From Pyrodictiaceae archaeon (GTDB lineage Archaea; Thermoproteota; Thermoprotei_A; Sulfolobales; Pyrodictiaceae): a stretch of 64,000 bases of DNA. The notes beneath the pieces were generated by a model, which ran no database searches, was not told the DNA's origin, and saw only the letters and a program-made list of their open reading frames with translations. A program made the position numbers and the translations under genes. How positions within the stretch are numbered: the stretch's first letter is position 1; each line of letters begins with the position of its first letter. The stretch covers positions 128,880-192,879 of the forward strand of contig JALVSY010000007.1 in assembly GCA_027036135.1 (NCBI GenBank), read 5' to 3'. Shown here one piece after another: positions 9,698 to 61,174 of this stretch.

Positions 9698-10742
9698 GTG
9701 ACTGATAGGGTTTTGCTCGATTTTGCTCCTGGGCTACGTGTACGCTTCGCTAACCGTGAGCGGGGCCTTAAGCGGATACAGGGCTTCGCTGGCGAGGCAC
9801 TAGCCTACCCGTGGTTATTTATGGCCCTGAGGGCTCCAGCAAGACGGCGCTCCTGCGCCAAGCGATGGTGCTTCTCCGGGAGCATGGGTACGAGGTCATC
9901 TACATTGATGCCTTGGCCGAGTCCCTTGGCGGCGCTGTCTCTGCGACCCCGGGTATCGGTGAGGCGCTACGAGGGCTTCTCCGCAGCCTCGTGGGCGAGA
10001 AGATCCAGGGCCTCGTTGAGGCCGTCTCGGTGCTTGTACGCGAGGCCCTGCGTAGGCTGGAGAGGCCCCGGCTAGCAGTGCTCCTCGATGATGCTTTCCA
10101 GGCTATTGGGCTAGGCAGGGTAGAGGCTTATGTGAAGCAGTTGCTTAACCTCATAGAGTACCCGGGCGCGGAGTACGATAGACTAGTGGTAATGGTTACG
10201 AGTAGTGAGGGGCGCTCACGCATAGTCCTCTCCAGGCATGCTTGGAGCATGAGCCTCTACCTATGGAACATGGATATGAACGGGCTCCGGGAGCTCTACG
10301 AGCAGCTGCCCGGCGACAAGCCAGGCCTAGGCACCGCGTGGCGTGTGAGCGGTGGTAATCCACGAGTGCTCCGGATCCTCTATGCGATGGGTTGGAGCAT
10401 TGAGGACGCCGTGGCCTGGCTAGTTGAGGAGAAGAGAGCCTAGCCGCGCTGCTGAGAAGGCTTAGACGGGAATCGCTTGAGGCCCTACGGCTCTTAGTCG
10501 AGGATCCTGGTGCTGCCGAGGAGAGGGTTCTCGGGGATAGGGAGCTACTAGGCCTGCTAGTGGATCATAACCTTGTATCAGTTATACCCGAGAGAAGGGA
10601 ATCCTTGTGGCTGGACAACGTGCCCCCGGCTAGGGACAGGGTACTGGGCATAGGAGGGAGCGTGGCGTGGCAGACCCCGCTTCACCGAGACGCCGTGGCT
10701 CACGTGCTCCAGCGCCTCTGGGCACGCACGGCCAAGGGGTAG
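9698..10742 (+). pseudogene. Archaeal ATPase-family gene with two frameshifts
   Basis: Three consecutive frames together spell one archaeal ATPase (PF01637-like) of about 345 residues. Frame one starts at GTG 9698 (TDRVLLDFAPGLRV) and runs to AYP near 9808. Frame two gives VVIYGPEGSSKTALLRQ, whose GPEGSSKT is the Walker A loop, then AVLLDDAFQAIG (Walker B region), to the TAG at 10441. Frame three continues as LLRRLRRESLEALRLLVEDPG to TAG 10742. Both breaks are one-base deletions by alignment of the sense. The first falls just before the P-loop, so the product cannot be a normal ATPase. Its 3' end overlaps the MFS pseudogene on the other strand. An intact relative lies at 30972-32003. Sequencing error is possible but the neighbour is also broken. 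Confidence 0.75.
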
Positions 10743-11971
10743 AGCCCCAGGGTGGCTAGGAGCACTGCTGCAGCGACGAGGAATGGTAGGGAGCGCCCCG
10801 GGATTATCCATAGGCTCTCCTTGCCTAGCTGGGAGTAGAGCCACCCAGCTACGAGGGGCCCAACTACCTGGCCGAGACTGGACAACATGTTTGACAAGCC
10901 GACGAGGCTCGCGTAGACGCCCCGGCCTCCTCCCAGGGCTACAGCGTTCCTGGTTAGCGGGAGACTAGCCCTCCCAGCAGCGAGCGCCGCTGAGAGCCCG
11001 AGGAGGACGATGAGCGGGGAGCCGCCGAGACCGAGCAACAAGTGGCCAATAATACCCAGGAACAGCACCGCTACTAGCACCCTGCCAGTGCCGAGCCGGT
11101 CACTGAGCGGCCCACAGCCAGCACCACTCCGAGGGCTAGGAGACCCGCGGAGGAGAGGACATCGCTTATCATCCTCTTCGTGTACCCATAGGCGCTGTGG
11201 AGATATATGTAGAGGAACTCGCGGAGAATGCCCGAGGCATAACCAGCAGCGAAAGCAGCCAATATTATCCAGAAAGCCATGGGCCCGGCCCCCAGCACCT
11301 CGGAGAAGCCCCGAATACCACGACCCCTATGCTTGACCCCAATACGCTCCAGCGGGGCCCGGGCCCCAACATAGGCAAACCCGGCACCAGACACAACGAA
11401 GAGCAGCACAGAGAAGCGCAGCACATCGGCATCGCCTAGGCCTAGGCGCCCGTAGAGAAACTGACCAAGAAGGGTACCCAGGGACCCAATAGCGAAGTAG
11501 ACCGACATAACGGTGCCACTACGCCTCGGGGAAAGCGACGAGGCAACAGTCTGTACCAGAGGCCAGAACAAGCCACCCATAAAAACCCCAAGCAGTGTTA
11601 AGGCCGATGATCGCTGCCACGGAGCGCGATAAGCTAATACGATAAACCAGGGTAGCAACCACGAAGAGCGAAGAAGCAACAATCAGCCTCCTAGCCAGGG
11701 GGGACAAATCGCTCCAAACACTACCAAGAATGGAGGATGCGGAGCGAGCACCCATAAACCAGCTAGTAAGACTAGAAACAGTAACCACGCCAGCTCCGAG
11801 GCCAGCAAGGTAGAACGCAAGCCCGAGACGAGACAAGCCAGCAGCAATAGCCGATACAAACACACTAACATATACCACGAAGAGATGCCTAGTCACATAC
11901 CCGCTACCCATAACAGACACCAAGGCACCTCTAGGATCTAGACCCCTTGTCACGCAACCAAGCCGCCTCAT
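10700..11971 (-). pseudogene. MFS transporter with two compensating frameshifts
   Basis: Three minus-strand pieces make up a 12-helix major facilitator transporter of about 420 residues. Piece one (from 11971, or ATG 11911) covers the first helices. A break near 11600 (after AAIIGL) moves to a second frame reading LTLLGVFMGGLFWPLVQT through the central loop. A second break near 11100 returns to the first frame at LSDRLGTGRVLVA, the conserved D-R-x-G loop between helices 8 and 9. Net shift is zero, but about 170 codons between the breaks depend on the shifted frame. Substrate unknown. Neighbouring ATPase is also broken, so I read this as a decaying accessory pair. A reading error in the source sequence is the alternative. 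Confidence 0.7.
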
Positions 11972-15900: not shown

Positions 15901-16343
15901 TTATGGGAGTACTCTGAGCCATGGTATTCTCTTAAAGTCTTCGTCAAAGGTGAGGATAGTGTCTATCCGTAGTGCTTACAGGTAAGTGCTATGATCCCGT
16001 CTGCTGGGAGGAGATTGAAGCGCTTAATAACATCTACGAGTTCTTGGAGGGAGGCTTTGTCTTCAAGTACTGTTATGCCGAGTTGCCTTATGAGCTCGTA
16101 GACCATATCTATTTCTTTCTCAAATGATTTATAGCCATGCCTTCTTATGTATTCTCTTAGTTCCTCTATGCGTTTTATGCCAAGGTCTCTCCAGGCCTTC
16201 ATCCGAGTAAGAGTATATATGACCTCGTCGATTACTTTTATGCTTGTATAGAGGTTTTCTCCCGTTACGAGATTCTCTATAATCTCGGAATACGGTCTTA
16301 CATCATGTAGGTAGTATACTATAACGTTCGTGTCTAGAAACAT
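15901..16343 (-). pseudogene. VapC PIN-domain toxin with a C-terminal frameshift
   Basis: The first 126 residues form a PIN domain: MFLDTNVIVYY (first Asp), KVIDEVIYTL (Glu) and LPADGIIALTCKHYG (third Asp). The frame then stops at 15963. In the next frame the sequence continues as IDTILTFDEDFKRIPWLRVLP and ends at TAA 15901. This is exactly the missing PIN C-terminus with its last acidic residues. Adding one G to the GG at the junction would rejoin them. The antitoxin gene upstream is intact and separated by four bases. The truncated toxin may be inactive or partly active. Confidence 0.75.
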
Positions 16344-25742: not shown

Positions 25743-26914
25743 ATGGCGACTAGCATAAATAGGATCCCTTGCTATAAGGCGTTGGGGAGCACTGTCTCCG
25801 TGAGCGACGAGAAAAAGAAGCAAGGAGAAGGGCTAAAGGAGATTGCTATAAAGCTTTCATGTCATGATTTCAGGTTGGAGCCGGACAAATTCGGTTTAAC
25901 AAAACCAGCGCTGACCTCGTTAATAAGAAGGCTCCCGGACCCCATAGCTCATACTCGTAATATAAAACCTATGGGGTTCAAACACATAATAGTTGGGATA
26001 CGTAGCAAGGAGCTTTGGCGCAGACTAGTAGATGCTACCCTGGTTAAGCAGCTCGCCGGGTACCGTATCCGAGGCTTGTTAGTGTACTCGGGTTCTTTCT
26101 CGGGAATATAATTCACGTAGCATATATCGTGCATGAGTCCCTCTTTAACCTGGTCTATAGGGAGGTAAGTGCCTGGGTAGAGGATCTCGAGAGAAAAGGA
26201 GTTAGCATTGAGTACTTTTTTAGTGGATACAGTATCCCGGTTAGGAATTGTACTGGGTCTCTGGGCTTTAGCGATAAAGTCATTAATTCTGCTCGAGAAG
26301 CGTTCAACTCCTTGTTGAAGGATACTAGGTATAGTTCTCGTATGCCTTTCCTAGACTACATTATTATCGCGACTCTTGATTTGTTTCCGAGACTTACCCT
26401 GAGGCAACTAAGTCATCTCGTGTACGCGGCGAGGGCAAGGCTCGAGAAGGAGCTCGATAAGTGGACTCTCTCGTTTCTACGCTACCGGTTCATTAATCGC
26501 CACTATAATGCTTTATCAGAGGCTAGGATCATTGGGCGTATGTGGGTTCCGAGACCGGTTCTCGGAGAATGCTATGAGCGCCTCGGCTTCATAGCTACGG
26601 GTGACTGTGCTGAAGACGTGTACGTTGCTGCTGCCGCTACGCTGGGTGCCGCTAACATAGTTGTTTCAAGGGAGTACGTTATGGCTACTATAGGTATCCT
26701 GCCAGAGTACCGCAACGAGGTTATCAATCGGATTAGGGACTGTGTTTTAAAGACCTTAGTGTCTTATAAGGCTAGGGTATTTCCTTTGCCTTTTGAGCTT
26801 TATGACCCGGTGCACAGGGTTTGGCGCACCGAGCCTGTGGGCTATGATCTTTACTCGTTGCTTCGCAGGTTTAGGCTCATGGAGAAAAGGGAGGGTGGGA
26901 AGAGGGGGAAGTGA
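25743..26914 (+). pseudogene. Unknown ~390-aa protein split by one frameshift
   Basis: The first frame from ATG 25743 encodes 122 residues, ending LLVYSGSFSGI. The second frame, from about 26096, reads FFLGNIIHVAYIVHESLFNL and continues without a stop to TGA 26914. Joining at LLVYSG/FFLG gives one smooth protein of about 390 residues. A one-base loss explains the break. The second half is alpha-helical with a basic middle (LRQLSHLVYAARARLEKEL), a possible winged-helix or nucleic-acid-binding part. It ends in a Lys/Arg/Gly tail. The GTG at 26129 could serve the second half as its own gene. No family is recognised. It could be two genes, but the sense across the join favours one. Confidence 0.5.
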
Positions 26915-41520: not shown

Positions 41521-43230
41521 CTACTTTTTCGTGCTTTGCTTTGTCTCGGGTGTGTAGCAATATTCTCTCCTTGCATGGTCTAGTGTTATTTTGCCGTCTT
41601 CTAGGTCTTGGAGTATTAGTTGCTCGTCTCTCTGGCAGGGGTCTCCGTAGCCTCCCCCGCCTGGCGTGTTTATGTAGACTGTGTCTCCTGGCCTGAGGAC
41701 TATGGTTTTCTTAGCTCCTAGTTCTATTTTCTCGCCATTAGCTCTTACCACGTAGTGGTGGGATGATTGGCCAGGTTTGCCTCCTCTTAGGCCCCATGGT
41801 CGTAGCCTGTAGCGCTCGGAGAATACTGTGACTGTTGCTTCTTCTAGTACTGTGAATGCTCTTGTTATTCCTAGTCCTCCTCGGTACTTGCCTGCTCCGC
41901 CGCTGTTTGGTCTTAGCTCGTAGGCTTTGAAGAGGACTGGGTACTCTGTCTCTATTACCTCTATAGGTGTGTTGAGCGTGTTGGTCATGTTGGTGTGTAC
42001 TCCGTCTACTCCGTCGCAGCATGGTCTTGCGCCGGTGCCGCAGCCTATGGTCTCGTAGAATGCCCAGGCCCTGCCCCCGACCGTGACGTTGGTCATGGTT
42101 CCGCAGCTGGCCGCTGGTACTTTGTCCGGGAATGCGTCTGCTAGTGCCCGGAGCACCACATCCGCTATGCGCTGCGATGTCTCGACGTTGCCTCCACCCA
42201 CGGGTGCGGGGGGCTCTGGGTTCACTATGGTTCCTCGCGGCGCGTGTATCTCTACTACGCGGTAGAAGCCATGGTTCATAGGCATATCCGGGTCTATTAC
42301 TGATTTCAGCGCATAAGTTGTCGCCGCGACTGTTACTCCATAGACAGCGTTTAGGGGCTCATCCACCTGGCTATGGGACCCCGTGTAGTCTACTCTTATC
42401 CGCTCCCTGGTTATCTCTACCCTAGCGTGTATCCGTGCTAGCTCGCCGCTGCTTAGCTCTAGGTAGTCCTCTGCCTCATAGACCCCGGCTTTACCGTGCT
42501 TCTCTACTAGCTCTACTAGCCGGTTCCTCGTGTAGCGCTCTGTGTAGCCCAGTATCTCGCTCCACGCCTCGAGCAGGGCCTCGGCGCCATACTTCTCTGC
42601 TAGTTCGCGTACACGCTTCTCCCCGAGGCGTAGCGCCGCTATCTGAGCCATGAGGTCTCCTTGGAAGTACCTCGGTGTCCTAACGTTGGCCTGTATGAGG
42701 CGAACTATGTCGCGTCGCAGCTCTCCATTCTCTACTATCTTTACGGGTGGTATCACTGTTCCTTCTTCTAGGAGTAGCTTTGCTCCCCCGCCGATGCTCC
42801 CGGGGACTGCTCCACCCACGTCTACGTGGTGGGCCTTGTTAGCTACTAGTGCTACTAGCTTGTCGCCTACATAGACGGGTTTGAGCACCATGAGGTCGTT
42901 TAGATGAGTGCCCGAGATGTACGGGTCGTTGGTTAGTACTACGTCGTCGGGGCCTAGTTCCTCGCCCTCCTTCTCAAGGTACCTTACTAGGTTCTTTGCC
43001 CCGACTGGCATGCTTCCTAGGTGGACTGGTATGTGCTCTGCCTGTGCGAGTAGGTCGCCGCTCGGGGTTAGTACCGCGCAGCTATGGTCTAGGCGGTCTC
43101 TTATATTGGGGCTGAACGCGGTGTTTCGTAGGACTACTCCCATTTCCTCCGAGGCGTAGATGAGTGCGTGCCTTATTACCTCGACAGTGACGGGGTCAAC
43201 CATTTGTTCCCGCACCTCTTTGCGCCACAA
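41521..43230 (-). CDS. hyuB: Hydantoinase B/oxoprolinase subunit
   Basis: The 569-residue protein is the HyuB subunit of ATP-dependent N-methylhydantoinase/5-oxoprolinase/acetone-carboxylase-like enzymes. Family motifs include AFSPNIRDRLDHSCAVL, HLNDLMVLKPV and HHVDVGGAVPGS near the start, and PGGGGYGDP at the end. It works with HyuA, encoded four bases upstream on the same strand. The likely job is hydrolytic opening of cyclic amides, perhaps of amino-acid derivatives. The exact substrate is not readable. The start is GTG/ATG at 43230 after a short leader. Confidence 0.9.
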   Translation of the reverse strand: MWRKEVREQMVDPVTVEVIRHALIYASEEMGVVLRNTAFSPNIRDRLDHSCAVLTPSGDLLAQAEHIPVHLGSMPVGAKNLVRYLEKEGEELGPDDVVLTNDPYISGTHLNDLMVLKPVYVGDKLVALVANKAHHVDVGGAVPGSIGGGAKLLLEEGTVIPPVKIVENGELRRDIVRLIQANVRTPRYFQGDLMAQIAALRLGEKRVRELAEKYGAEALLEAWSEILGYTERYTRNRLVELVEKHGKAGVYEAEDYLELSSGELARIHARVEITRERIRVDYTGSHSQVDEPLNAVYGVTVAATTYALKSVIDPDMPMNHGFYRVVEIHAPRGTIVNPEPPAPVGGGNVETSQRIADVVLRALADAFPDKVPAASCGTMTNVTVGGRAWAFYETIGCGTGARPCCDGVDGVHTNMTNTLNTPIEVIETEYPVLFKAYELRPNSGGAGKYRGGLGITRAFTVLEEATVTVFSERYRLRPWGLRGGKPGQSSHHYVVRANGEKIELGAKKTIVLRPGDTVYINTPGGGGYGDPCQRDEQLILQDLEDGKITLDHARREYCYTPETKQSTKK

Positions 43231-47044: not shown

Positions 47045-48277
47045 CTAGATACGCTTAGCTCTCAGCGATCTACGCCTAGTCTCTAAGGCCTCTGGGAAAG
47101 GCGCTGGCTGGTAGTGCTCCTCGCTATAGTCATCGCGTATCCTCACCCAGCCGAGAAGTACTAAGCGAACATTATCGGTGCTAATCCCTTTATTCCCAGC
47201 GGGTCTAAGGACTATCTTTTCACCAGGTATGTCTAGATCCTCCACCACTGCCAGGGTGTCACCGTCATTGCTCCTAATGCCTGCTAGTAGGCCCCTAGCC
47301 CAGCCGGGGCGCAGCCACCGAGCCGGGGCATCTGGTCTTCGACGAGACTCTATGAAGACGGTGTTTGTACACGTATAGATTACTTCTTCGCTACTGATAC
47401 TGTATGGGCACAGATGAGCAGCTGGGACTCCTCGCAGCACTATGGGCTTGCTCGCGGAGAAGAGCGAGGCGTAGAGGCGCTGGCGATAGGCTCGCCTATC
47501 GCCTCGACTCCGCAGCCTAACAAGCTCCGGCGGCACACTAGGCGCTCTAACAACATCTACTCCTAGGCCGCTGAGCTCCCTTGCCAATCTCTCCTGGCCC
47601 AGCACTATAACAGTGTCTGGCTCCACAGCCTCTACCAGTGCGCGCTTGTACACAACACCCCTATGGGTTACGAAGCCATCGGTATCCATAACGTATTCTC
47701 TGCACTCACGGGCCGCGCGAGTAGTAGCTGCTATGACCAGGTCTATTACCTTCTCGGCCGAGACATGGCCGACAAAGAACCCCTTACTAGGGACGAGGTC
47801 TTGTAGGGACAAAACGTGCCCATCGCCGGGAGGGGCCAGGGACACCATGCCCGGGGTACCGAACTCGTTCTGGCCTACATCAGCCTCCACCACGCATAGT
47901 CTCAGAGCATTGCGTAGCCAGGTGCTCAGCGTAGACTTCCCGGACTCTGGTGCGCCGACGACTACTATACGCCTAGACCCGGTTTCCTCAAGCTCCTTAA
48001 CCACTCTTTGCCACTCCTCTACAAGCTCGTACCCCTTCTCAACCAGCCTATAGGCGCCATTAGCTCCGAGCCCTAAGCAGAGCCTGGAATCCTCCAAAGC
48101 GTATAGAGATGATCCGCGCTCACCCCTAACAATTATCTCGGCCCCGCCTTCCAGCACAAAACCGGTCGCCATGAAGGAGCCGCGCTCAATAACCACCTTC
48201 GCGGGGCCACTAACCCATACACCACTGCCCCTGGCTACCTCAATGCACTCCATGGCGCGTGCCCCGCTCACGCCCAT
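47045..48277 (-). CDS. Clp1/Grc3-type polynucleotide 5'-kinase
   Basis: The protein of about 410 residues has a Clp1/Grc3 kinase core: VVVGAPESGKSTLSTWL (Walker A), VEADVGQNEFGTPGMV and FFVGHVSAEK are characteristic of RNA 5'-hydroxyl kinases in archaea and eukaryotes. The enzyme phosphorylates 5'-OH ends of RNA or DNA, useful in tRNA/rRNA processing. The frame is open to 48427, but the first 50 residues look unlike the family. ATG 48277 or ATG 48253 (MECIEVARGSG) fits better. A TATA-like TTTTATCT is near 48375. It may be co-transcribed with the ATPase gene downstream. Confidence 0.85.
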   Translation of the reverse strand: MGVSGARAMECIEVARGSGVWVSGPAKVVIERGSFMATGFVLEGGAEIIVRGERGSSLYALEDSRLCLGLGANGAYRLVEKGYELVEEWQRVVKELEETGSRRIVVVGAPESGKSTLSTWLRNALRLCVVEADVGQNEFGTPGMVSLAPPGDGHVLSLQDLVPSKGFFVGHVSAEKVIDLVIAATTRAARECREYVMDTDGFVTHRGVVYKRALVEAVEPDTVIVLGQERLARELSGLGVDVVRAPSVPPELVRLRSRGDRRAYRQRLYASLFSASKPIVLRGVPAAHLCPYSISSEEVIYTCTNTVFIESRRRPDAPARWLRPGWARGLLAGIRSNDGDTLAVVEDLDIPGEKIVLRPAGNKGISTDNVRLVLLGWVRIRDDYSEEHYQPAPFPEALETRRRSLRAKRI

Positions 48278-48483
48278 AATGCACCGAAGTGAATCCAAAA
48301 GCCTAATGGGTGCTTCCCTCCTACAGGGTTCTCGTAATGTTTCTGGAAAGAACTGGGAGAACACGGGGAGAAAGATAAAACATAGTAAGACCCTAGTATA
48401 GCCCCCGGGAGACCCACCCCAGACCACAGAGACCTAGCAGAGCAACGAGTACCTCGTGGGGTGCGCGTGTCTTGGCTTTACTC

Positions 48484-52175: not shown

Positions 52176-52228
52176 CCCAGCAAGTACTTATACTATGAAC
52201 ATGCTTTTATTTACCTGGTGGGAAACAC

Positions 52229-52537
52229 GTGCCACTATACGTTATCCTATCCAAGCTAACCGATAAAGGCGCACAAACAGTTTTCAAGAAGCCGGAGAGA
52301 ATCCTAGAGGTGAACAAGGAGCTCGAGGAAATGGGGCTAAGAGTAATCCACCAGTACCTTGTCTTCGGTGACTAGGATTTCTTAAACATAGTTGAGGCCC
52401 GGAACAACGAAGCCCTCGCAGCAGCACTGATAAACCTGAACATAAGGGGCACTATAAGAACAACTACCTACAAGCTAATGAGCATCGACGAGTTAATAAA
52501 AGCGGTCAAGAAGACCGCAGAGAAGAAAGAAGACTAA
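52229..52537 (+). pseudogene. GYD-domain protein interrupted by one in-frame TAG
   Basis: From GTG 52229 the frame reads PLYVILSKLTDKGAQTVFKK, then LVFGD followed by TAG at 52373-52375 (codon 49), then DFLNIVEARNNEALAAALIN to TAA 52535-52537, in all 102 codons. This is a GYD-domain protein, a small dimeric alpha/beta family of unknown function. In homologous proteins an aromatic residue stands at the TAG position (G-[QRD]-[YW]-D), so TAC/TAT or TGG to TAG fits. Everything else is intact, so the change may be recent. Without readthrough the product is a 48-residue fragment. Confidence 0.75.
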
Positions 52538-52552
52538 GGAACTGATATTGCT

Positions 52553-53821
52553 CTAGTTGCAGTGGGGCCTAGCCTCTAGTTTTCTAAGTCTTTTCTCTAT
52601 CTCTTTCTCGAAGAACTCTGCTAGCCTTTCTACCTCGTCTAAGCGTCCACTACGCGCCTGCTCCTGTGCATAGAGGATCAGGGGGCGCATGAGTTTCTTC
52701 AACAAGCTCTTAGTGAAGAGGGCCAAGGGCTCAGCAACAACCCCGTCTATCCCGCGTCCCCGTAGCACACTAGTAAGCTCTTCTAGCTCCTCTGAGGCAA
52801 CCATCTCCGCGTATCGCATAATCTTCGCGATAGCCTCGTCAGCCAATCTTTTCTCCCACTTAGCTATGAAAATCCTTATCTCATCCTCTATTATCTTCTC
52901 CGCCTTAGGTATCTCTGCTAAGCGCTTCTCAAGGGTATCCCTTATAGCCTCCTTCACCTCGTCTAGGCCAGCGTACTCGATGTGGCCCGGAACAGGCTTC
53001 TCAACAACTGATGGCACTGATATATCAACTATGAGGGTGCCGGGCTTAAGCACCGAGAGAACATCCCTTGTAAGCACTGGCTTAAGGGCATTAATAGCAA
53101 CGAAGACGATGCGCGCGCTACTGACTGCCTCGCGTAGCTTATCCAGGGGATAAGCACTACCCCCGACCTTTGCTGCTAGCTCGGCTGCTTTCTCATAGCT
53201 ACGATTAACGATGGCTATGCGTGCTCTTGGCCACTTCTCCCTCACGAGACTAGCTATTATAGAGCCAGCATCGCCGGCACCAATAACCGCTACTAGCTCG
53301 TCACCGATATCGCCTAGCCTCTCCCATGCAAGCTTCACAGCCGCTCCGGGAAACCCTACATTGCCCCTGGATATCCCGGTCTCGCTTCGAACAAGCTTAC
53401 CGACGCGAACAGCGAACTGGAAAAGCATAGACAAGTACTTCGAGGCGAAACCCAGGCGACGAGCCTCCTCATAAGCCCGTGCAACTTGGCCAAGAATCTC
53501 GTTCTCACCAATAATGGCTGACTCGAGGCCGGCTGCTACACGGAACAAGTGACGAACAGCATCTACTCCGCGAAACACTCTCGCATAGCCAGCAGCGTCT
53601 CCGAGGAATTCACGGACTCGTGCAAGGAACTCCTCCTGGTCATCGCTGAGCGCGTAGGCCTCGAAACGATTACACGTAGCGAGTACAACGAGTTCACGAG
53701 AAGAACCAGCAAGATAACTATAAGCGTCGCGCGCTCTCTGCTCAAGAGCACCGATAACCTCTAGGGGGGCCCAGCGATGACTAATACTCACCGCAACAAG
53801 GTCATCAAGACCAGGAGCCAC
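52553..53821 (-). CDS. hemA: Glutamyl-tRNA reductase
   Basis: The 422-residue protein is GluTR, the first committed enzyme of tetrapyrrole synthesis by the C5 route; it reduces Glu-tRNA to glutamate-1-semialdehyde with NADPH. The catalytic Cys lies in VVLATCNRFEAYA, the tRNA/substrate motif in AGLESAIIGENEILGQV, the Rossmann domain in VAVIGAGDAG and ARIAIVNRS. A helical dimerisation tail closes it. GTG start. No hemL or hemB is adjacent. It provides precursor for a corrin or heme-type product, in line with cobN. Confidence 0.95.
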   Translation of the reverse strand: MAPGLDDLVAVSISHRWAPLEVIGALEQRARDAYSYLAGSSRELVVLATCNRFEAYALSDDQEEFLARVREFLGDAAGYARVFRGVDAVRHLFRVAAGLESAIIGENEILGQVARAYEEARRLGFASKYLSMLFQFAVRVGKLVRSETGISRGNVGFPGAAVKLAWERLGDIGDELVAVIGAGDAGSIIASLVREKWPRARIAIVNRSYEKAAELAAKVGGSAYPLDKLREAVSSARIVFVAINALKPVLTRDVLSVLKPGTLIVDISVPSVVEKPVPGHIEYAGLDEVKEAIRDTLEKRLAEIPKAEKIIEDEIRIFIAKWEKRLADEAIAKIMRYAEMVASEELEELTSVLRGRGIDGVVAEPLALFTKSLLKKLMRPLILYAQEQARSGRLDEVERLAEFFEKEIEKRLRKLEARPHCN

Positions 53822-54005
53822 GAGCTATCACCATCGTCGTGGCGATAAAACAGGGCACAGCGGTACTGGCTCCACTACCTCACCTTCTCCTATCAACATA
53901 AGCTACCACTATCACTCTTGTAATGGTTTCCCCCTAAAAAATAAGGATGAGGAAGGACACCTAAATAATAGACCGGCGCCGAGAATAGTACCCGAGACTA
54001 AGGAG

Positions 54006-54029
54006 CTGTGCCTAAACATTTTGGCACAG
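54006..54029 (+). promoter_or_regulatory. Perfect 7-bp inverted repeat before a regulator gene
   Basis: CTGTGCC and GGCACAG flank a 10-base AT-rich spacer (TAAACATTTT), ending 58 bases before the GTG of the HTH gene. It could be an autoregulatory operator or a 5' leader hairpin. Confidence 0.4.
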
Positions 54030-54087
54030 TACTATGCGCATACCCTCTACCCCGCACAAGTAATTCGACTCTTTGGACTAAAGGTGC

Positions 54088-54867
54088 GTGAACGTCTTGG
54101 CCCGCACCCCTGCACTAATAGTCGCGATTAAGGAGCCCAGGAACCCCGATGAGTACTGCTTCGCGCAACGCCTCCTCTACCTAGCAGAGAGCATGTGCGA
54201 CACTAGCCAGGCGAGCTGCAAGCTGGGCAGAAGCGGGGCCGAGATCCCATACCCCTTGCTAGTCGCCACAATCCTCCACGCCGCTAGCCGCGGCGACAAG
54301 GTAGAGGGCTGGATAAGGGTGCAGGGAGAGCAACAAGCACTAGCAGCTTTACAAACAGTTCTTCGCCGAGAAAAAGAACTGGCCTTCCAGGTAGTAGCTG
54401 AGACTAAACACAATATACTAGTAAAGATATTAATACCTTTGAATAAGTGGTGTGGTGGTTGCCGCTTCTGCCCACACATAGATACACTGCCAAACACTAT
54501 GCCGGTAAGCATAGTTTTGACTAGCCAATACATAGTCTTTAGCCTGATAGCCTCTAGGCCACAGGTGCTCAGACAAATGGAGGACCTAGGCTTTAGAATA
54601 CTAGACGCGCTACCAGTAACCGAGTACGAGGACCCATTGACCTCGAAGCAGGAGATAGCACTAGTACTAGCCTATCTCTACGGCTACTACGCCCACCCCA
54701 GAAGGACAAGCATAAGGGAGCTAGCAAGCAAGCTAGGCATGTCTGGCTCAGCGCTAGCAGAGCTACTGAGGAAAGCCGAGCTCAAGGTAATAAAGAACTA
54801 TGTTATCGGTAACCTAGCGCACCACATATACCTAACAATCAGGCAGAAGGCGCAAGAAGCAGACTAG
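54088..54867 (+). CDS. Bat-type HTH_10 regulator with cysteine cluster
   Basis: The 259-residue protein ends in a bacterio-opsin-activator-type HTH: LTSKQEIALVLAYLYGYY, then TSIRELASKLGMSGSALAEL, the recognition helix region, at about 200-245. The N-terminal part has Cys clusters, DEYCFA, MCDTSQASC and WCGGCRFC, a pattern that could bind a metal or Fe-S cluster and make it a redox or metal sensor (inference). GTG start. An inverted repeat lies 58 bases upstream. The stop is three bases from the convergent gene at 54871. Confidence 0.75.
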   Translation: MNVLARTPALIVAIKEPRNPDEYCFAQRLLYLAESMCDTSQASCKLGRSGAEIPYPLLVATILHAASRGDKVEGWIRVQGEQQALAALQTVLRREKELAFQVVAETKHNILVKILIPLNKWCGGCRFCPHIDTLPNTMPVSIVLTSQYIVFSLIASRPQVLRQMEDLGFRILDALPVTEYEDPLTSKQEIALVLAYLYGYYAHPRRTSIRELASKLGMSGSALAELLRKAELKVIKNYVIGNLAHHIYLTIRQKAQEAD

Positions 54868-54870
54868 GCA

Positions 54871-55209
54871 CTACCTCCTACCAGCCCTCTTCTTCCAGGC
54901 CTCAATCTCCTCCAACAATGGCCTGGGATCACCCTTCTCAAGCGCATCAATTACTTGTAGAAGCCTACTAGGCGGGATAATCACAACCAATACACTCCGG
55001 AGAAAGAAGCGGGCACGGCGCTTATCGCCTTTCGCGTACTCAAGAAGTACACTATAGGCCTTCAAGGGATCAGTTACAAGGAGCGAGGCGAAATCAGACT
55101 TATACTTCTTAAACGCGATATTGTTGAGCATCGATACAGCGCCCAGCGCAGTACCGCGCAGCCTCCGAGACAAGAGCTGCACAAGCTTATCCTGCGCCGA
55201 AGCCGACAC
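54871..55209 (-). CDS. Unknown helical protein, paralogue of 27021 gene
   Basis: The 112-residue protein is helical and mildly basic: RRLRGTALGAVSMLNNIAFKK, FASLLVTDPLKAYSVLLEYA and RFFLRSVLVVIIPPSRLLQV. It shares a spaced pattern with the 27021-27344 product (RRL-x-G, LN, DP-x-x-A, LL), pointing to a small lineage-specific family. It starts at ATG 55209 and ends convergent to the HTH gene. Function unknown. Confidence 0.55.
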   Translation of the reverse strand: MSASAQDKLVQLLSRRLRGTALGAVSMLNNIAFKKYKSDFASLLVTDPLKAYSVLLEYAKGDKRRARFFLRSVLVVIIPPSRLLQVIDALEKGDPRPLLEEIEAWKKRAGRR

Positions 55210-55367
55210 CCCGATACTACACCTCGCCGCGCTATAAGAACGTAATCCCTGCCCCTAAGCCCCCGCTACCACTCCAAGCCAATAACATTAACTCTGCTTA
55301 GTGGTACAGTAAAAAGCTAGCGCTCATTAATCGGAGACCAGACTAGGTTACCAAATAGATATAGGTG

Positions 55368-56291
55368 TCAAAGAAACACGCTCCCAGCCTCTCGATCCTC
55401 CTTAATCCCGAACTCCTTCATCCTTGGCACACACGTGAACTTTAACACGGAAACAGGATAGACTACTACGTCGCATTCTATGTGCATCGAGACATGATAG
55501 GCTTCAAGCGTCCAGATCTGTCGTAGAGGATCCTCTGAGCCCTTACCAAGCAAGCGAGGCGCCGTGCTAATAAAGACAACAGCGTCATATGTTGATACTA
55601 ATGGGAATCTCTGCATGGCCTCTTTCCCAGGCACTGTATAAATAAAGACACCGAGGACACGCTTCCTCTTATTCCATAGTATGAAGTTGTAAAGCTCCGG
55701 AAGTATCTCTTCTCTCGGATGAAGCGCTTCGAGAAGCTCTACGCCCTCAATCATGAGTATGTCTGGCTTGTAGTGCTCTACGGCGAATCTCATAAGGAGG
55801 AGGAGCTCGTGAACCGTGTAGGCGCTCGGATTAAGTGATATCACGTGCACCGAGCCACCGTTACGTGATCCTAGTTGCTTTGAGAGCTGCTTTGCTAGGC
55901 ATTCGGTTATTTCGCGAAGAGCCGGAGCACTTGTCTTGAAGCTAATTATTAGTATTTTTGCCCCACGTATTGCCTTCTCTAAGCTAGCCAATAGGGTCAC
56001 TAAGAACCGGCTACTGACAGGTATGTCGAGTCCGATAGCTATCTGAGCATCGCGAGATAGCACAAGGCGCGGACATACTTCCTCGATGATCTGGCGCCTC
56101 CTTATATAAGGCATATCTAGTACCACGAGGGGCGGGTTAGTCCTTGAACCATAGATTAATGGTGTACATAGATTATATAGTGTGGAATAATCCGGTGGTG
56201 GTATCTCTTCTAGTTCCTCGGGAGAACTATGTCTATCATTTCGTGGGGCCTTATGTAGAACGTTACCTCGGAGAACCGGATGGGCGCCCAT
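55368..56291 (-). CDS. KaiC/RecA-like protein lacking a P-loop
   Basis: The 307-residue protein keeps the order of a RecA/KaiC-like core without Walker A: AKILIISFKTSAPALREITE for the strand after the P-loop region, PDILMIEGVELLEA for the Walker B-like strand, and VLGVFIYTVPGKEAMQRF for a later strand. No GxxxxGK[ST] is present. It is encoded after and overlapping the true KaiC-like gene by 82 bases, so it may form a complex with that protein as an inactive subunit. The start ATG 56291 lies in the overlap. It is the last gene of the pilus-assembly locus. Confidence 0.65.
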   Translation of the reverse strand: MGAHPVLRGNVLHKAPRNDRHSSPEELEEIPPPDYSTLYNLCTPLIYGSRTNPPLVVLDMPYIRRRQIIEEVCPRLVLSRDAQIAIGLDIPVSSRFLVTLLASLEKAIRGAKILIISFKTSAPALREITECLAKQLSKQLGSRNGGSVHVISLNPSAYTVHELLLLMRFAVEHYKPDILMIEGVELLEALHPREEILPELYNFILWNKRKRVLGVFIYTVPGKEAMQRFPLVSTYDAVVFISTAPRLLGKGSEDPLRQIWTLEAYHVSMHIECDVVVYPVSVLKFTCVPRMKEFGIKEDREAGSVFL

Positions 56292-56986
56292 CGCACCTTC
56301 CTTATCTCCATTATTCGTAGCGGCTTTCCCCTCTTCATGACGGTGCGTAGAATGAATACTGCATCAACAACGAATTCCTCTACGCCCTCGCCTACAACTT
56401 GTGCCCCGTAGGGATGCTCTGCTACGAGGATGCTCGTGACTCCTAGTGACTTGAGACCGTTTACGAAGAAGTTCTGTAGGAGCTTTCTTATCCTGGATTT
56501 CTGCTTCCCTAGTATCTGTAGCATGACCGTGACGCTGTCCACTACTAGGCGCTTAGCGTTCATATCCATGGCCATGCCTATGATGTCCTCTAGTTGCTGT
56601 GCAAGAGCCTCATCATCAGCTATTGTTAGTGCCTCAACGTAGCGGAACAATCCCTGCTTCTCGTATTTCTCGAAGTCTGCTCCAAGGCTCTCCATATGGG
56701 CATAGAAGTCTTGGCGAGGCTCAACGAAGTTCACATAGATGCCTGGCTCGCCGCGCTTAAGCCCCTCATAGATGAACTTGGCAGCGAGAGTTGACTTACC
56801 GGTACCAGGGTTCCCGGCTACTAGGATTATTGCTCCCTTCATGAAGCCCCCGGCGAGGAGGCGGTCAAGCCCACTAATACCACTCGGAGTTATCTCGATG
56901 CGTGCTAGCCGAGGCGCGAACATATTGATTTCTTCTCTTTGCTCCTTGTACCCCTCCTTTCTGGGCTCTTGGGTCATGTCGTGCAC
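56210..56986 (-). CDS. KaiC/FlaH-like ATPase
   Basis: The 258-residue protein is a KaiC-domain (RAD55-type) ATPase. LAGGFMKGAIILVAGNPGTGKSTLAAKF holds Walker A (GNPGTGKST), MDMNAKRLVVDSVTVML the Walker B strand, and ILVAEHPYG a later strand. In archaella the related FlaH works beside the ATPase FlaI and membrane protein FlaJ. Here it lies after the pilus ATPase and membrane genes on the same strand, suggesting an equivalent role. A short gap of 187 bases separates it from the TadC-like gene. The assignment to the filament is inference by position. Confidence 0.8.
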   Translation of the reverse strand: MHDMTQEPRKEGYKEQREEINMFAPRLARIEITPSGISGLDRLLAGGFMKGAIILVAGNPGTGKSTLAAKFIYEGLKRGEPGIYVNFVEPRQDFYAHMESLGADFEKYEKQGLFRYVEALTIADDEALAQQLEDIIGMAMDMNAKRLVVDSVTVMLQILGKQKSRIRKLLQNFFVNGLKSLGVTSILVAEHPYGAQVVGEGVEEFVVDAVFILRTVMKRGKPLRIMEIRKVRWAPIRFSEVTFYIRPHEMIDIVLPRN

Positions 56987-57173
56987 CTCAGCACAGAGCT
57001 ACGAAGGCAATACGGCCAAACTTGTGCTGAATTACTAGGCTTATTCCTATAGGATCGTAGTACGGACGTGGTAATTAACGTACTACCTCCGTTTCCTGGG
57101 AGAGCACTATGTACTCGCATTTATTGTTTATGCAGGACAGATTTGTTCCGGTTTCTATTACTACTTGTGGCTC

Positions 57174-58052
57174 CTAGGTCATTATTCTGGGCGAGAATAG
57201 CATTATGAATGTGTCTAGGAGTGTTAGCATTGCTATGTATTTTGCCGCGAGTAGGCTGTAGCCGTGCACTATCCGTGCTACTATGAAGGCTGCCGCAAGT
57301 ATTATGACTATTAATGAGTAGTAGTAGAGGCCGAGGAGTAGGCCTGGGTTAACGGCTCTACCAAAGCCCGGGAGGCTCATAACGGAGAGCTTCTGGACGA
57401 GGCCTACTACTATTCCTGCTGAGAAGGCGTATGTTATTGATGCAAGGGCTCCTATGAAGCCGTACTCGCTTAGACGAGCCTTGACCAGGCTTAGTAGCCT
57501 ACGAGTGCTCTGCGCGTGGCTGGATGCTACGCCGAGTACGCGGTGCATCATGCCCCTGCTCTTAGTGGCTGTTACTATGTTGTAGGCGTATATCCTTACT
57601 TTGCGGGGCGCGTTGCTAAACGCTGCGCGGAACGCGTTGTCTAGGTCCCCGGTCATCTTGTATATCCTGGCCATTCTCTCCACGAGCATCGACATAGGCT
57701 TATCAAGTATCTTCGAGGCTGCTAGTAGCGCGTCGGCAGCAGAGCCTGTTGAGGCTAGGAGGCTAGCGTAGAGGGAGAGAAGCTCCGCTACCTGGTACTC
57801 AAGAGCCTCTGATATCGCTGCTTCTCTACGGGCATATAGGTAAAGGGGGAGAGCAGCAACTGTTATGGCGCCGGATATCTCTATCATTGTGCCGGGATCA
57901 GTTATCACGGGTATGAACCTGAACAACACGATCTGGTGCCTAGGCACTAGTAGGGCGTAGCCAGTCTTCGCTGCTAGCCCTGGGTAGAGGAAGAGCCAGA
58001 GAAGCGGCAATAGTAGAGCACTCGCCGCTGCGACTAATTGTCGTGTATCCAT
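57174..58052 (-). CDS. TadC/T2SF-domain pilus assembly membrane protein, second half
   Basis: The 292-residue integral membrane protein has helices near residues 8-24, 46-62, and three near the C-terminus (LASITYAFSAGIVVGLV, YYSLIVIILAAAFIVAR). Between them is the cytoplasmic T2SF helical domain (YQVAELLSLYASLLASTGSA). Most crenarchaeal FlaJ/UpsF-type proteins carry two such domains on one chain of about 500 residues. Here they are on two proteins, as TadB/TadC in bacterial Tad pili. The gene starts 5 bases after the first half on the same strand. Confidence 0.8.
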   Translation of the reverse strand: MDTRQLVAAASALLLPLLWLFLYPGLAAKTGYALLVPRHQIVLFRFIPVITDPGTMIEISGAITVAALPLYLYARREAAISEALEYQVAELLSLYASLLASTGSAADALLAASKILDKPMSMLVERMARIYKMTGDLDNAFRAAFSNAPRKVRIYAYNIVTATKSRGMMHRVLGVASSHAQSTRRLLSLVKARLSEYGFIGALASITYAFSAGIVVGLVQKLSVMSLPGFGRAVNPGLLLGLYYYSLIVIILAAAFIVARIVHGYSLLAAKYIAMLTLLDTFIMLFSPRIMT

Positions 58053-58057
58053 GATGC

Positions 58058-58912
58058 TTACACCCTTATGCGCGACACCATCGAGTCAGCCATTACTGCT
58101 ATAGCCGCGCTCGTAGCTGGTATAAGTATGAAGGTTGAGATAAACAATATGTTGTCGAACGAGAGCAGGGGTGTCCTTGGCGGCTGTATAGCGAAGAGGA
58201 GAGCAACCACACCCACCGCGACTGGGAGCATTGCTCCTATAGCGACGAATATCTCTAGGAGCGCGCCGAGAGAAGAGGAGAGATTCTCGACGTATGACTC
58301 TGAGGCATAGAGGTACTCTGATACAACAGTGTCTATCACCTCCTCTATACTGCTACCCGTCTTAGCAGCTGCTGCAAGGCCGCCGAGGAGGCTCTTCAGG
58401 CTAGGGCTAGGAGTTATCTTCGCTGCCTCGCTGAGGGCTTTATCAAGGGGGATACCGGCTCGAATCGCTGAGGCAATGTACTCTAGCTCTATGCTGAACT
58501 CCCTTAGCTCTTCCCTCTCCTTCTCCCACAGCTCTATAAAGGCGGCAGCAATCCCGCTGCCAGCTAGTATGCGTGTTGCTAGCGCTGATGCGAAGGAGAG
58601 GAAGCGTGGCTCAAGCTTGCTCGCACGCCCCTTGTAGGCTGTGCTTGGAAGCATTATGTAGAGCGCGAGGCCTATCACGGCGAAGCTGAAAGCGAAGCCA
58701 ATGCCGAGAACTATTGTGGCCTGGAGCGGGAAGTGCCTGGCCGTGTAGAAGTAGGAGGCGAGTAGAGCCGGAAGCACAGTAGATAATAAGACAATGATTA
58801 TGGTGAACATTGTTGTGTAGCTGTCTAGGCTACGAGCAATCCCGGAGCCAAGGACATGGTACTCGAGGTCAGGGTTAAGGCTTAGCCCCAGCCTCTTAAC
58901 GAGCTCCCTCAT
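58058..58912 (-). CDS. TadB/T2SF-domain pilus assembly membrane protein, first half
   Basis: The 284-residue protein has paired membrane helices near residues 35-55 and 70-90, a cytoplasmic helical domain (ASALATRILAGSGIAAAFIE, AIRAGIPLDKALSEAAKITP) and two C-terminal helices (EIFVAIGAMLPVAVGVVAL and a last one). This is one T2SF unit of the platform protein that anchors a pilus ATPase. ATG overlaps the ATPase stop by four bases, so the two are coupled. The second half follows after five bases. Confidence 0.82.
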   Translation of the reverse strand: MRELVKRLGLSLNPDLEYHVLGSGIARSLDSYTTMFTIIIVLLSTVLPALLASYFYTARHFPLQATIVLGIGFAFSFAVIGLALYIMLPSTAYKGRASKLEPRFLSFASALATRILAGSGIAAAFIELWEKEREELREFSIELEYIASAIRAGIPLDKALSEAAKITPSPSLKSLLGGLAAAAKTGSSIEEVIDTVVSEYLYASESYVENLSSSLGALLEIFVAIGAMLPVAVGVVALLFAIQPPRTPLLSFDNILFISTFILIPATSAAIAVMADSMVSRIRV

Positions 58913-60273
58913 CCCCGGGACACCCTCTTGTAGGTATAGGGCGATGTCTCCGAGAGCGCCTCCTCGTAGACCTTGTCTGGTTCCCTCATGTAGCGTCTCA
59001 CAACCTCGTGTAGCTCCAGCATATCAGCATCCTTCTCAGCTAGCCACTTGATAACAGTAGCCCTCCTCTCAAGGTCGCGCCACACCTCCTTGGAGCTAGT
59101 AACTAGTAGCTCAGCTATGGATGCGACAAAGCTACTCTCGGGGCTTGTTAGAACCCAGTCGTCCTCCCTGCTCCTCCACTGAACCAGTCTATCTAAGTAA
59201 ATCTCGTCCCGGGCCGGGTCATACTCCCTGGTCTCGTCTAAGCGAATAACCTTTCTCGCTACACGGCCCCCTCTCTCAAGCCGCAGTATGTGCACAAATA
59301 GCTTCGTCGCGGCTATGAGGCTCTTGGGCACATTCATGGGGGGCGAGGCAAGACGCCTTATAAGCACATCAGCGCTCTCGGCATGAACCGTTGTCAAGCC
59401 ACCGTGCCCGGTCGCTAGTGCCTGGAAGAACGCGAAGGCTTCGCGGCTACGAATCTCGCCAACAATTATGACGTCTGGCCTCATCCTCAAAGCGCTCTCG
59501 ACTTGTGCTTGCAAGGTAACGTTCTGCACACCAGGCATATCGCTTAGCCTGGTGTGCATCGCTGTCCAGTTATCGTGGAACGGTAAGTAGATCTCCGGGG
59601 TATCCTCTATGCTAACAATCTTGTACTCCGGCGGGAGGAGCATTGCTAAGGCGTTGAGGAGCGTGGTCTTACCGCTCCCCGTGGGCCCATATATGACGAC
59701 GCCCTGCTTGTACTGGATAGCAGCCCAAAGCATAGCCACGATACCAGGGTCAAGTGTGCCCTTGTTAACTAGCTCTATTACCGTGAAGGGCTCGGCGCGG
59801 AACTTACGAATAGTGAAGCTATGCCCACGTCTAGAGACAACATCAAGAACAATATGTACACGGTAGCCCTCGGGGCGGAGAATACCCTCAACAACGGGTC
59901 TCGCGAGGCTAGGCTCTTGGCCAGAGCGGAGACCAAGCTTAAGAACCACGCGCTCAAGCTCAGCCGGGTCATTGAACACAATATTGCTCGTAAGCCACTC
60001 GAACTCGGAGTGATAAACAAACACCGGGGTCAATAACCCGTTGCACGAAATATCCTCTATATGGGGGTCACGGATAATCGGGTCAAGCCTACCATACCCA
60101 ACAAGGTCGCGGGCAAGATAATAAGCGACCCGGGAAGCCTCATCCTCAACACTCCGGCCAACCCTCTTTAACCGGGCACGCAAAGGAGCAAGAGCCCTGC
60201 GAGCCAATGCATAAGCCTCACGAATGCCCTCGCCAAAATCCTCTATAGAGGAGAAGCGACGAAGAAGACCCAT
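58909..60273 (-). CDS. Type IV pilus/Tad secretion ATPase
   Basis: The 454-residue protein is a GspE/VirB11-type ATPase that powers pilus assembly: VVIYGPTGSGKTTLLNALA (Walker A), an Asp box in VSIEDTPEIYLP, RPDVIIVGEIRSREAF (Walker B), and a His box in TGHGGLTTVHAES. The frame continues in phase upstream beyond ATG 60273 to a stop near 60535. It reads plausible N-domain sequence there (PPVAVSVVEDVDGRRFYNVE, ARVLERLRSHILRD), but no ATG, GTG or TTG precedes it. A GGAGG lies near 60466. The true start is therefore uncertain. It overlaps the TadB-like gene by four bases and heads the operon. Confidence 0.9.
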   Translation of the reverse strand: MGLLRRFSSIEDFGEGIREAYALARRALAPLRARLKRVGRSVEDEASRVAYYLARDLVGYGRLDPIIRDPHIEDISCNGLLTPVFVYHSEFEWLTSNIVFNDPAELERVVLKLGLRSGQEPSLARPVVEGILRPEGYRVHIVLDVVSRRGHSFTIRKFRAEPFTVIELVNKGTLDPGIVAMLWAAIQYKQGVVIYGPTGSGKTTLLNALAMLLPPEYKIVSIEDTPEIYLPFHDNWTAMHTRLSDMPGVQNVTLQAQVESALRMRPDVIIVGEIRSREAFAFFQALATGHGGLTTVHAESADVLIRRLASPPMNVPKSLIAATKLFVHILRLERGGRVARKVIRLDETREYDPARDEIYLDRLVQWRSREDDWVLTSPESSFVASIAELLVTSSKEVWRDLERRATVIKWLAEKDADMLELHEVVRRYMREPDKVYEEALSETSPYTYKRVSRG

Positions 60274-60739
60274 ATCACGAAGAATATGGGAACGAAGCCT
60301 CTCAAGAACACGGGCCCCGATATTACTAAGCCCAGGCTCCTCAACATTATAGAAACGCCTACCATCAACATCCTCGACAACACTAACAGCAACAGGAGGC
60401 TCGTCACGAATAAGATATCGGGATAAAAGTCTCGAGGTCTCTCTATTTTGTACTTTTTCGCCTCCTAAGTCTTTGCCTTCATTACTTGTTGATTCTCCGT
60501 AAATACTAGCGCTTGTTTTTGTAATAAAACATCCCCCAAACTAATAACTCCTTAGGTTATCGTTCACCTATTTAAGCAATCGATACCTTGAGTAAAAGCA
60601 ATTAACACTATTTTATCTCAATTTAATTATTCTAATTATTGTATCATTCTCTGAGACAGAAATAAAGGATTAAAAAAGCAAGAGAAGATTTTAAGACTAG
60701 GATGCTCATGCTGCATTTATCCAGTTATATTTAACTCAT

Positions 60740-61174
60740 TTAACTCCGTATAGTTGCTACATAGGTGGCAGTAACACCATCCTTAGTGACCACCTTAACT
60801 ATTATAGTTGATCCCGATTTCAGCGAAAGACCTGTAACATTCACCGAGCCTACGCTACCAGGCGGTATCTCTATATTAGTTACCGAGGTATTTTCCTTTA
60901 TTACCTCACCGTTTGAGGCGTTTATGACATAGACGGTACTGAGATTTACCGGTATATTACCAATATTCCTCACATATACGGTTAGGGTACCACTGCTGGA
61001 GTTATAACTTACACTATCTATCGTTATTCGCTCTTGCAGGCTCGGCGATGACGTAGGTTGATTGCTCACAGTCCCGCTTACCCATGTATAGAGGAGCACT
61101 GAGACAGCTACCGCGATGAGTACTAAGAGCGCTGTAGCCACAACAGGAGATATACCCCTTAGTTGATACTTCAT
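60740..61174 (-). CDS. Archaeal type IV pilin
   Basis: The protein of about 144 residues starts at ATG 61174 with GAGGTG upstream. It has a class III signal: MKYQLRG, then the hydrophobic helix ISPVVATALLVLIAVAVSVL and LYTWVSG, the classic archaeal pilin start (cleavage after Gly). The rest is beta-rich with several N-x-S/T sequons. The frame is open to 61279, but the extra residues are not pilin-like. A TATA element lies at about 61230-61240. Next on the strand are the pilus ATPase and platform genes, after 470 bases, so this is probably the main subunit. Confidence 0.88.
   Translation of the reverse strand: MKYQLRGISPVVATALLVLIAVAVSVLLYTWVSGTVSNQPTSSPSLQERITIDSVSYNSSSGTLTVYVRNIGNIPVNLSTVYVINASNGEVIKENTSVTNIEIPPGSVGSVNVTGLSLKSGSTIIVKVVTKDGVTATYVATIRS

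Follow-up and report, generated by a model that had tools for sequence, protein, structure and literature searches.

The locus described here raises the question of whether two overlapping KaiC-like reading frames downstream of a set of pilus genes encode two proteins or one, and of what kind of pilus they accompany. It lies in a 64,000-nucleotide stretch of DNA from a Pyrodictiaceae archaeon (the window; G000:C7:128880-192879, within a 2.2-Mb genome of 40 contigs). An earlier note, made from the letters of the window, had described a Tad-like pilus locus with a split platform protein, in which two KaiC-like proteins, one active and the other an inactive pseudo-KaiC, were suggested to form a heteromer in place of FlaH. 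On the minus strand the genes run in the order pilin, VirB11/T2SSE-type ATPase, first T2SF protein, second T2SF protein and KaiC-family protein, and the profile matches of the pilin, ATPase, T2SF and KaiC products bore out this order and these identities as the note had given them. A startless frame upstream of the ATPase and a small helical gene belonging to the KaiC module had been overlooked. The features, in window coordinates, are the following.

60740..61174, minus: type IV pilin (UpsA/PilA-like) with the class III signal MKYQLRGISPVVA; TIGR02537 above cut-off
58909..60273 as called, minus: VirB11/T2SSE-family pilus assembly ATPase; PF00437, NF058587 329 bits
58058..58912, minus: first platform protein, TadB-like, T2SF; PF00482 36.6 bits
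57174..58052, minus: second platform protein, TadC-like, T2SF, diverged; orthologue matches to PF00482
56210..56986, minus: N-terminal (CI-like) KaiC domain with the P-loop GNPGTGKS; PF06745 191 bits
55368..56222, minus: CII-like domain forming the C-terminal part of that KaiC, lacking Walker A; one open reading frame in relatives
56219..56224, minus: site of a one-base deletion breaking the KaiC frame; nucleotide alignment with G165 and G163
55340..56260, minus: mosaic block over the CII-like domain; sliding identity and dS
54871..55209, minus: small all-helical KaiC partner gene, 112 aa; adjoins two-domain KaiC across the order
54088..54867, plus: HTH_10 transcription regulator, convergent (tail to tail) with the gene for the helical protein; PF04967 55.8 bits

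Analysis of the pilin revealed a class III signal (TIGR02537, 30.7 bits; cut-off 20), and orthologous pilins were found at the equivalent position in five relatives (G163, G160, G159, G162 and G173). The ATPase matched PF00437 with 114 bits, as is required of the T2SSE-family member of an archaeal type IV pilus, and the platform was identified through PF00482 matches on the first T2SF protein and on orthologues of the second. A prepilin peptidase gene is present elsewhere in the genome (PF01478 over cut-off at G000:C7:1014087). The ATPase scored below cut-off on both the FlaI-type model NF058587 (cut-off 550) and the TadA model TIGR03819 (187 bits; cut-off 373), and compared with structures it reached 286 bits against archaeal GspE, 219 against FlaI and 134 against CpaF. 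The description of the locus as Tad-like therefore holds for the presence of two platform genes but not for the ATPase, which is nearer the FlaI type (329 bits) than TadA (187 bits), and no other Tad genes were noted at the locus. No other arl genes were noted there either, and the pair expected of an Ups pilus, a single UpsF platform with UpsA, was not recovered (28.8 bits of the 400 needed on the UpsF model; 51 bits for the pilin on the UpsA model, below its cut-off of 130). Predicted from its genes alone, the locus is a crenarchaeal type IV pilus operon of known kind.

The ATPase gene is longer than called. Its stop-to-stop frame covers 543 aa and stays open and conserved upstream of 60273 to about 60470, with a YNVEEPGL segment that is conserved in relatives, and this comparison places the predicted true N-terminus upstream of 60273. 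No ATG, GTG or TTG start was found for the upstream frame in this assembly (window 60273-60540), possibly reflecting a further indel.

The platform split was examined by phylogeny of the ATPase. The second T2SF protein had no T2SF match of its own; six of the eight sequences in its orthologue set matched PF00482 (best 9.4e-10). Its gene was a conserved neighbour across the order, and the first T2SF protein was encoded by a separate gene in all relatives. Two platform genes followed the ATPase at eight more loci within the family to which the window belongs, and at 17 loci from six other families. All 30 of 30 split-platform loci (eight families) grouped on one side of a branch with support 99/98. 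On the other side were 12 loci with a single platform gene of 585-640 aa, the FlaH-linked ATPases together with S. acidocaldarius FlaI (support 100/100), a long-branched split locus (G167) and a secondary split in G012, where a platform of the single type occupies two open reading frames (L174:5277-7183) that are one in the unsplit sister G011, probably through a recent split or a frameshift. The tree contains long branches that leave its deep joins unsure, and the placement of the window within it is firm (nested groups 100/99 and 99/98). The constant two-gene state on one branch of the ATPase tree upholds the split that the earlier note had described and rules out a degraded single gene; as judged from this phylogeny, the split is genuine, old and the ancestral arrangement. 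A profile scan of the genome contigs with the second platform protein returned four loci, all from Pyrodictiaceae, and the named matches were Pyrodictium and Pyrodictiaceae MAGs. Profile-to-profile comparison of both platform proteins was uninformative, and the comparison of the two T2SF genes with bacterial tadB and tadC is one of gene number.

Examination of the KaiC region in relatives gave a different result for the second supposed split. KaiC and pseudo-KaiC formed a single open reading frame in all nine relatives in which the region is intact (G165, G163, G160, G161, G159, G162, G173, G172 and G171), with a fused length of about 495-540 aa from the first start. In G165, which belongs to the same genus, the protein sequence continues uninterrupted across the junction (...IVLPEELEEIPPPDYS... 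/ ...EMIDIVLPEELEEIPPPDYS...). The P-loop GNPGTGKS/T was present in the first domain and a Walker A motif absent from the second in nine of nine fused proteins. The fused protein was modelled from its G165 version (mean pLDDT 72.7), and the model aligned with two-domain KaiC over about 490 columns (1tf7_A, TM 0.63/0.69); the profile scored 267 bits against a KaiC chain versus 44 bits against the FlaH chain 4yds. Both domains are thus found in one protein in the nine relatives and by fold, and in the window only across the frameshift. Since the two parts are one frame in relatives, match two-domain KaiC in fold over both domains and have a KaiC-like profile score, we assign the pseudo-KaiC to the CII-like half of one KaiC. 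The RecA-like part that the note had recognised as lacking a P-loop is real as a domain, on the sequences of relatives and the fold match; the open reading frame called for it (55368-56291) starts with about 23 codons in the wrong frame. Cyanobacterial KaiC has a Walker A in each of its two domains. Among the two-domain KaiCs read beside the helical gene elsewhere in the order, most have one such motif and those at L098 and L101 have a pair, so loss from the second domain was likely secondary.

We also examined the surroundings of KaiC, where a small gene follows on the same strand. In a gene-order check the linkage of KaiC to pilus genes recurred in most family members. The pilus genes were followed by KaiC and the helical gene in G163, G160, G161, G159, G162, G173 and G171, and in G165 from the second platform gene on; the order pilin-ATPase-TadB-TadC-KaiC-helical was complete in G163, G160, G159, G162 and G173 and partial or contig-limited in G161, G165 and G171. 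The family member G170 has the pilus genes and lacks the KaiC module, and no match to KaiC or the helical gene was found in G167. Outside the family KaiC is mostly located elsewhere, usually not beside the pilus locus; a two-domain KaiC lies near pilus genes in G072 and G073, and a relative of the helical gene stands near pilus genes without KaiC in G153, G155, G156 and G109 (in other families, loci L143, L144, L141 and L147). In G163 the main KaiC is separated from the second platform gene by an extra KaiC-helical module that runs on the other strand (L036:9512-11289), and the KaiC of this module spans two frames.

The helical family occurred in 70 of the 229 genomes searched. Two-domain KaiC adjoined the helical gene in the window and, of 19 other loci read in the order with 1.5-kb flanks, at 14, three of the rest being cut by contig ends, and on this adjacency we count the helical gene as part of the KaiC module. 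Its product was predicted to be all-helical (pLDDT 94). The best structural match was PH0832 (2p9x; Z 10.2, 95 residues, rmsd 3.1), the next reaching Z 4.7. Its structure matches gave no sign of the DEATH-domain likeness that has been claimed for arCOG03758, a negative that does not prove the likeness absent. An HTH_10 gene adjoined the module in G165, G166, G163, G173, G172 and G171, and may have a role in the pilus/KaiC system. In the window a 187-bp gap separates the second platform gene from KaiC, so co-transcription of the two is not certain.

Taken together, these data make it probable that the locus is a crenarchaeal type IV pilus operon with a two-gene platform and, downstream, a two-domain KaiC regulator with a helical partner, the apparent KaiC pair being one gene broken by one base. 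The class III pilins would presumably be cut by the prepilin peptidase encoded elsewhere, and the ATPase, acting as a putative hexamer, would push them into the filament by way of the two separate T2SF platform proteins. The first KaiC domain is predicted to bind ATP; the second, having lost its P-loop, is probably a docking or sensing domain. KaiC, with the helical protein as its candidate binding partner, would most likely serve as an on-off switch for the ATPase or for the expression of the pilus genes. A KaiC relative, ArlH, binds and modulates its motor ATPase (PMC8978795), which makes control of the motor plausible here and is not evidence for it.

The alternative that survives best concerns the target of this regulation. 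KaiC and the helical protein, the latter replacing a KaiB-like partner, may act on transcription or timing, feeding the HTH_10 regulator and leaving the pilus motor untouched. Many loci of the order carry KaiC with the helical gene and have no pilus genes nearby, HTH_10 adjoins the module in several relatives, and a role of this kind has been suggested for arCOG01174/arCOG03758 (PMC4858521). However, the tight linkage to pilus genes in most of the family and the behaviour of ArlH, a single-domain KaiC relative, count against this reading, and we regard a purely transcriptional or timing role as quite possible while leaning somewhat against it.

The break in the window's KaiC was located by nucleotide alignment. 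At the junction, near 56220, the window reads GTTCT-CCCGAGG and G165 reads GTGCTCCCCGAGG, i.e. CCC versus CCCC, and this one-base deletion produces the two overlapping reading frames. A census of orthologous reading frames (244 kb of this genome, 359 kb of G163) revealed seven of 144 genes with a broken frame in this assembly versus none truly broken in G163, where one flagged break came from a misframed comparison of KaiC. Among the genes broken here are those for an MFS transporter, a PIN-domain protein and a 2-hydroxyacid dehydrogenase. Breaks relative to G163 were observed within the window at 10718-11842, 15907-16343 and 25818-26902 (MFS transporter, PIN-domain protein and a family without a Pfam match). 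Two other candidates were discarded: one at 43072 was an antisense-ORF artefact, and one at 47048-48433 arose from N joined into a concatenated comparison and was absent from the later census. Programmed frameshifting is unsupported, as relatives have no stop at the junction and no slippery run was seen.

The deletion sits just inside the edge of a block in which the window departs from its relative. Identity to G165 was 86-98% over most of 52200-57500 and 58-82% around the gap upstream of KaiC, and fell to 63-77% in a sharply bounded block of about 0.9 kb (from about 56260 to 55340). Between the window and G165, dS was 2.68 in the block compared with 0.44 for the first KaiC domain, 0.32 for the tail of the platform gene and 0.27 for the helical gene. 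Sliding identity revealed no such drop between G165 and G166. Between G160 and G161 the whole KaiC gene was elevated (dS 1.2 and 1.7, versus 0.25, 0.37 and 0.65 in neighbouring genes; the ATPase values were misframed and excluded). These patterns come from two genome pairs, a small number, and are most simply explained by recombination with diverged alleles.

An assembly error or a recent mutation is the likely origin of the KaiC break, because the same assembly breaks seven of 144 genes; a sequence error appears most likely, and its chief rival is a real mutation of recent date. A real deletion would truncate KaiC after its first domain, through decay or a reversible switch at the C run, and would leave the pilus locked on or off. 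Its position where a diverged and probably recombined block begins is consistent with this, as are the dispensable types among the broken genes (MFS transporter, PIN domain) and the broken frame of the second KaiC module inserted in G163. However, the other broken genes of the assembly suggest sequence errors generally, the C run is short, and the CII frame contains no other stop and has a dN/dS of 0.06 in the block (where dS is near saturation). We therefore consider a real mutation unlikely, if still to be reckoned with, and prefer sequence error. A bolder proposal, that the domain lacking the P-loop is a fast-evolving cassette repeatedly swapped by recombination among Pyrodictiaceae, whose edge frame breaks are real and switch the pilus regulator, would mean phase variation in a hyperthermophilic archaeon; we find it improbable.

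Analysis of FlaH-type genes bore on the remaining reading. The KaiC of the locus scored 57.6 bits on the ArlH model (cut-off 215). Besides this locus, G163 encodes a FlaH (229 bits; cut-off 194) next to a FlaI (661 bits; cut-off 550), and a near-cut-off FlaH was found in G159; these archaellum-motor genes of FlaH-FlaI type lie at L152:6704-9215 (G163) and L040:1289-3836 (G159). In the genome that holds the window, none of the other T2SSE genes had a KaiC or FlaH match beside it. Because a true FlaH-FlaI motor exists elsewhere in the close relative G163, and the profile is closer to two-domain KaiC, the locus KaiC is not a replacement for FlaH. A heteromer of separate active and inactive proteins standing in for FlaH, suggested by two overlapping reading frames in this assembly, the second without a P-loop and with its ATG preceded at a few bases' distance by GGAAGG, is thus highly improbable, the two parts being one polypeptide in every relative with the region intact.

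With the false two-gene KaiC model removed, the locus takes its place among crenarchaeal pili in an old lineage with two platform genes, and KaiC with its helical partner, joined to the pilus in one family, forms a compact candidate for KaiC control of archaeal surface filaments. Two features deserve further attention: the helical partner, whose gene is shared across the order, and the mosaic second KaiC domain. Platforms made of two genes, an association with KaiC and the pairing of KaiC with a helical protein are already known from archaeal pili (Makarova et al. 2016; PMC4858521), where loci with one or two TadC-like genes were described, KaiC ATPases were placed within pilus operons or close to them, and the pairing of KaiC with a small helical protein was tied to one pilus clade. 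The loci of that survey (subclades 4A/4H/4I/4J and 4B) share with ours the ATPase, TadC-like genes (one or two) and pilins of the PilA family, and some have KaiC ATPases and the KaiC-helical pair within or near them; here, in contrast, the second platform gene is immediately followed by KaiC and the helical gene in most members of one family. The pair arCOG01174/arCOG03758 shows the same adjacency as the window, a likeness drawn from its description. PH0832, a hypothetical helical protein of Pyrococcus horikoshii, is the best fold match to the helical partner, although the sequence link is marginal (E 0.005) and helical bundles can reach Z 10.2 without kinship. With two-domain KaiC, whether cyanobacterial or archaeal double, the protein of relatives shares both domains in one chain and a fold match over both, but its C-terminal domain lacks Walker A and is poorly conserved. 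Like the archaellum motor (ArlI/ArlJ/ArlH), the locus has a homologous ATPase, a T2SF fold and an adjoining KaiC-family protein; unlike it, there are two platform genes rather than one, the KaiC is two-domain and far below the ArlH cut-off, and the ATPase is below the FlaI cut-off. The bacterial Tad pilus (TadA/TadB/TadC) resembles the locus in its two separate platform proteins, whereas the ATPase here is nearer archaeal GspE and FlaI than CpaF/TadA and the pilin is of the archaeal class III type.
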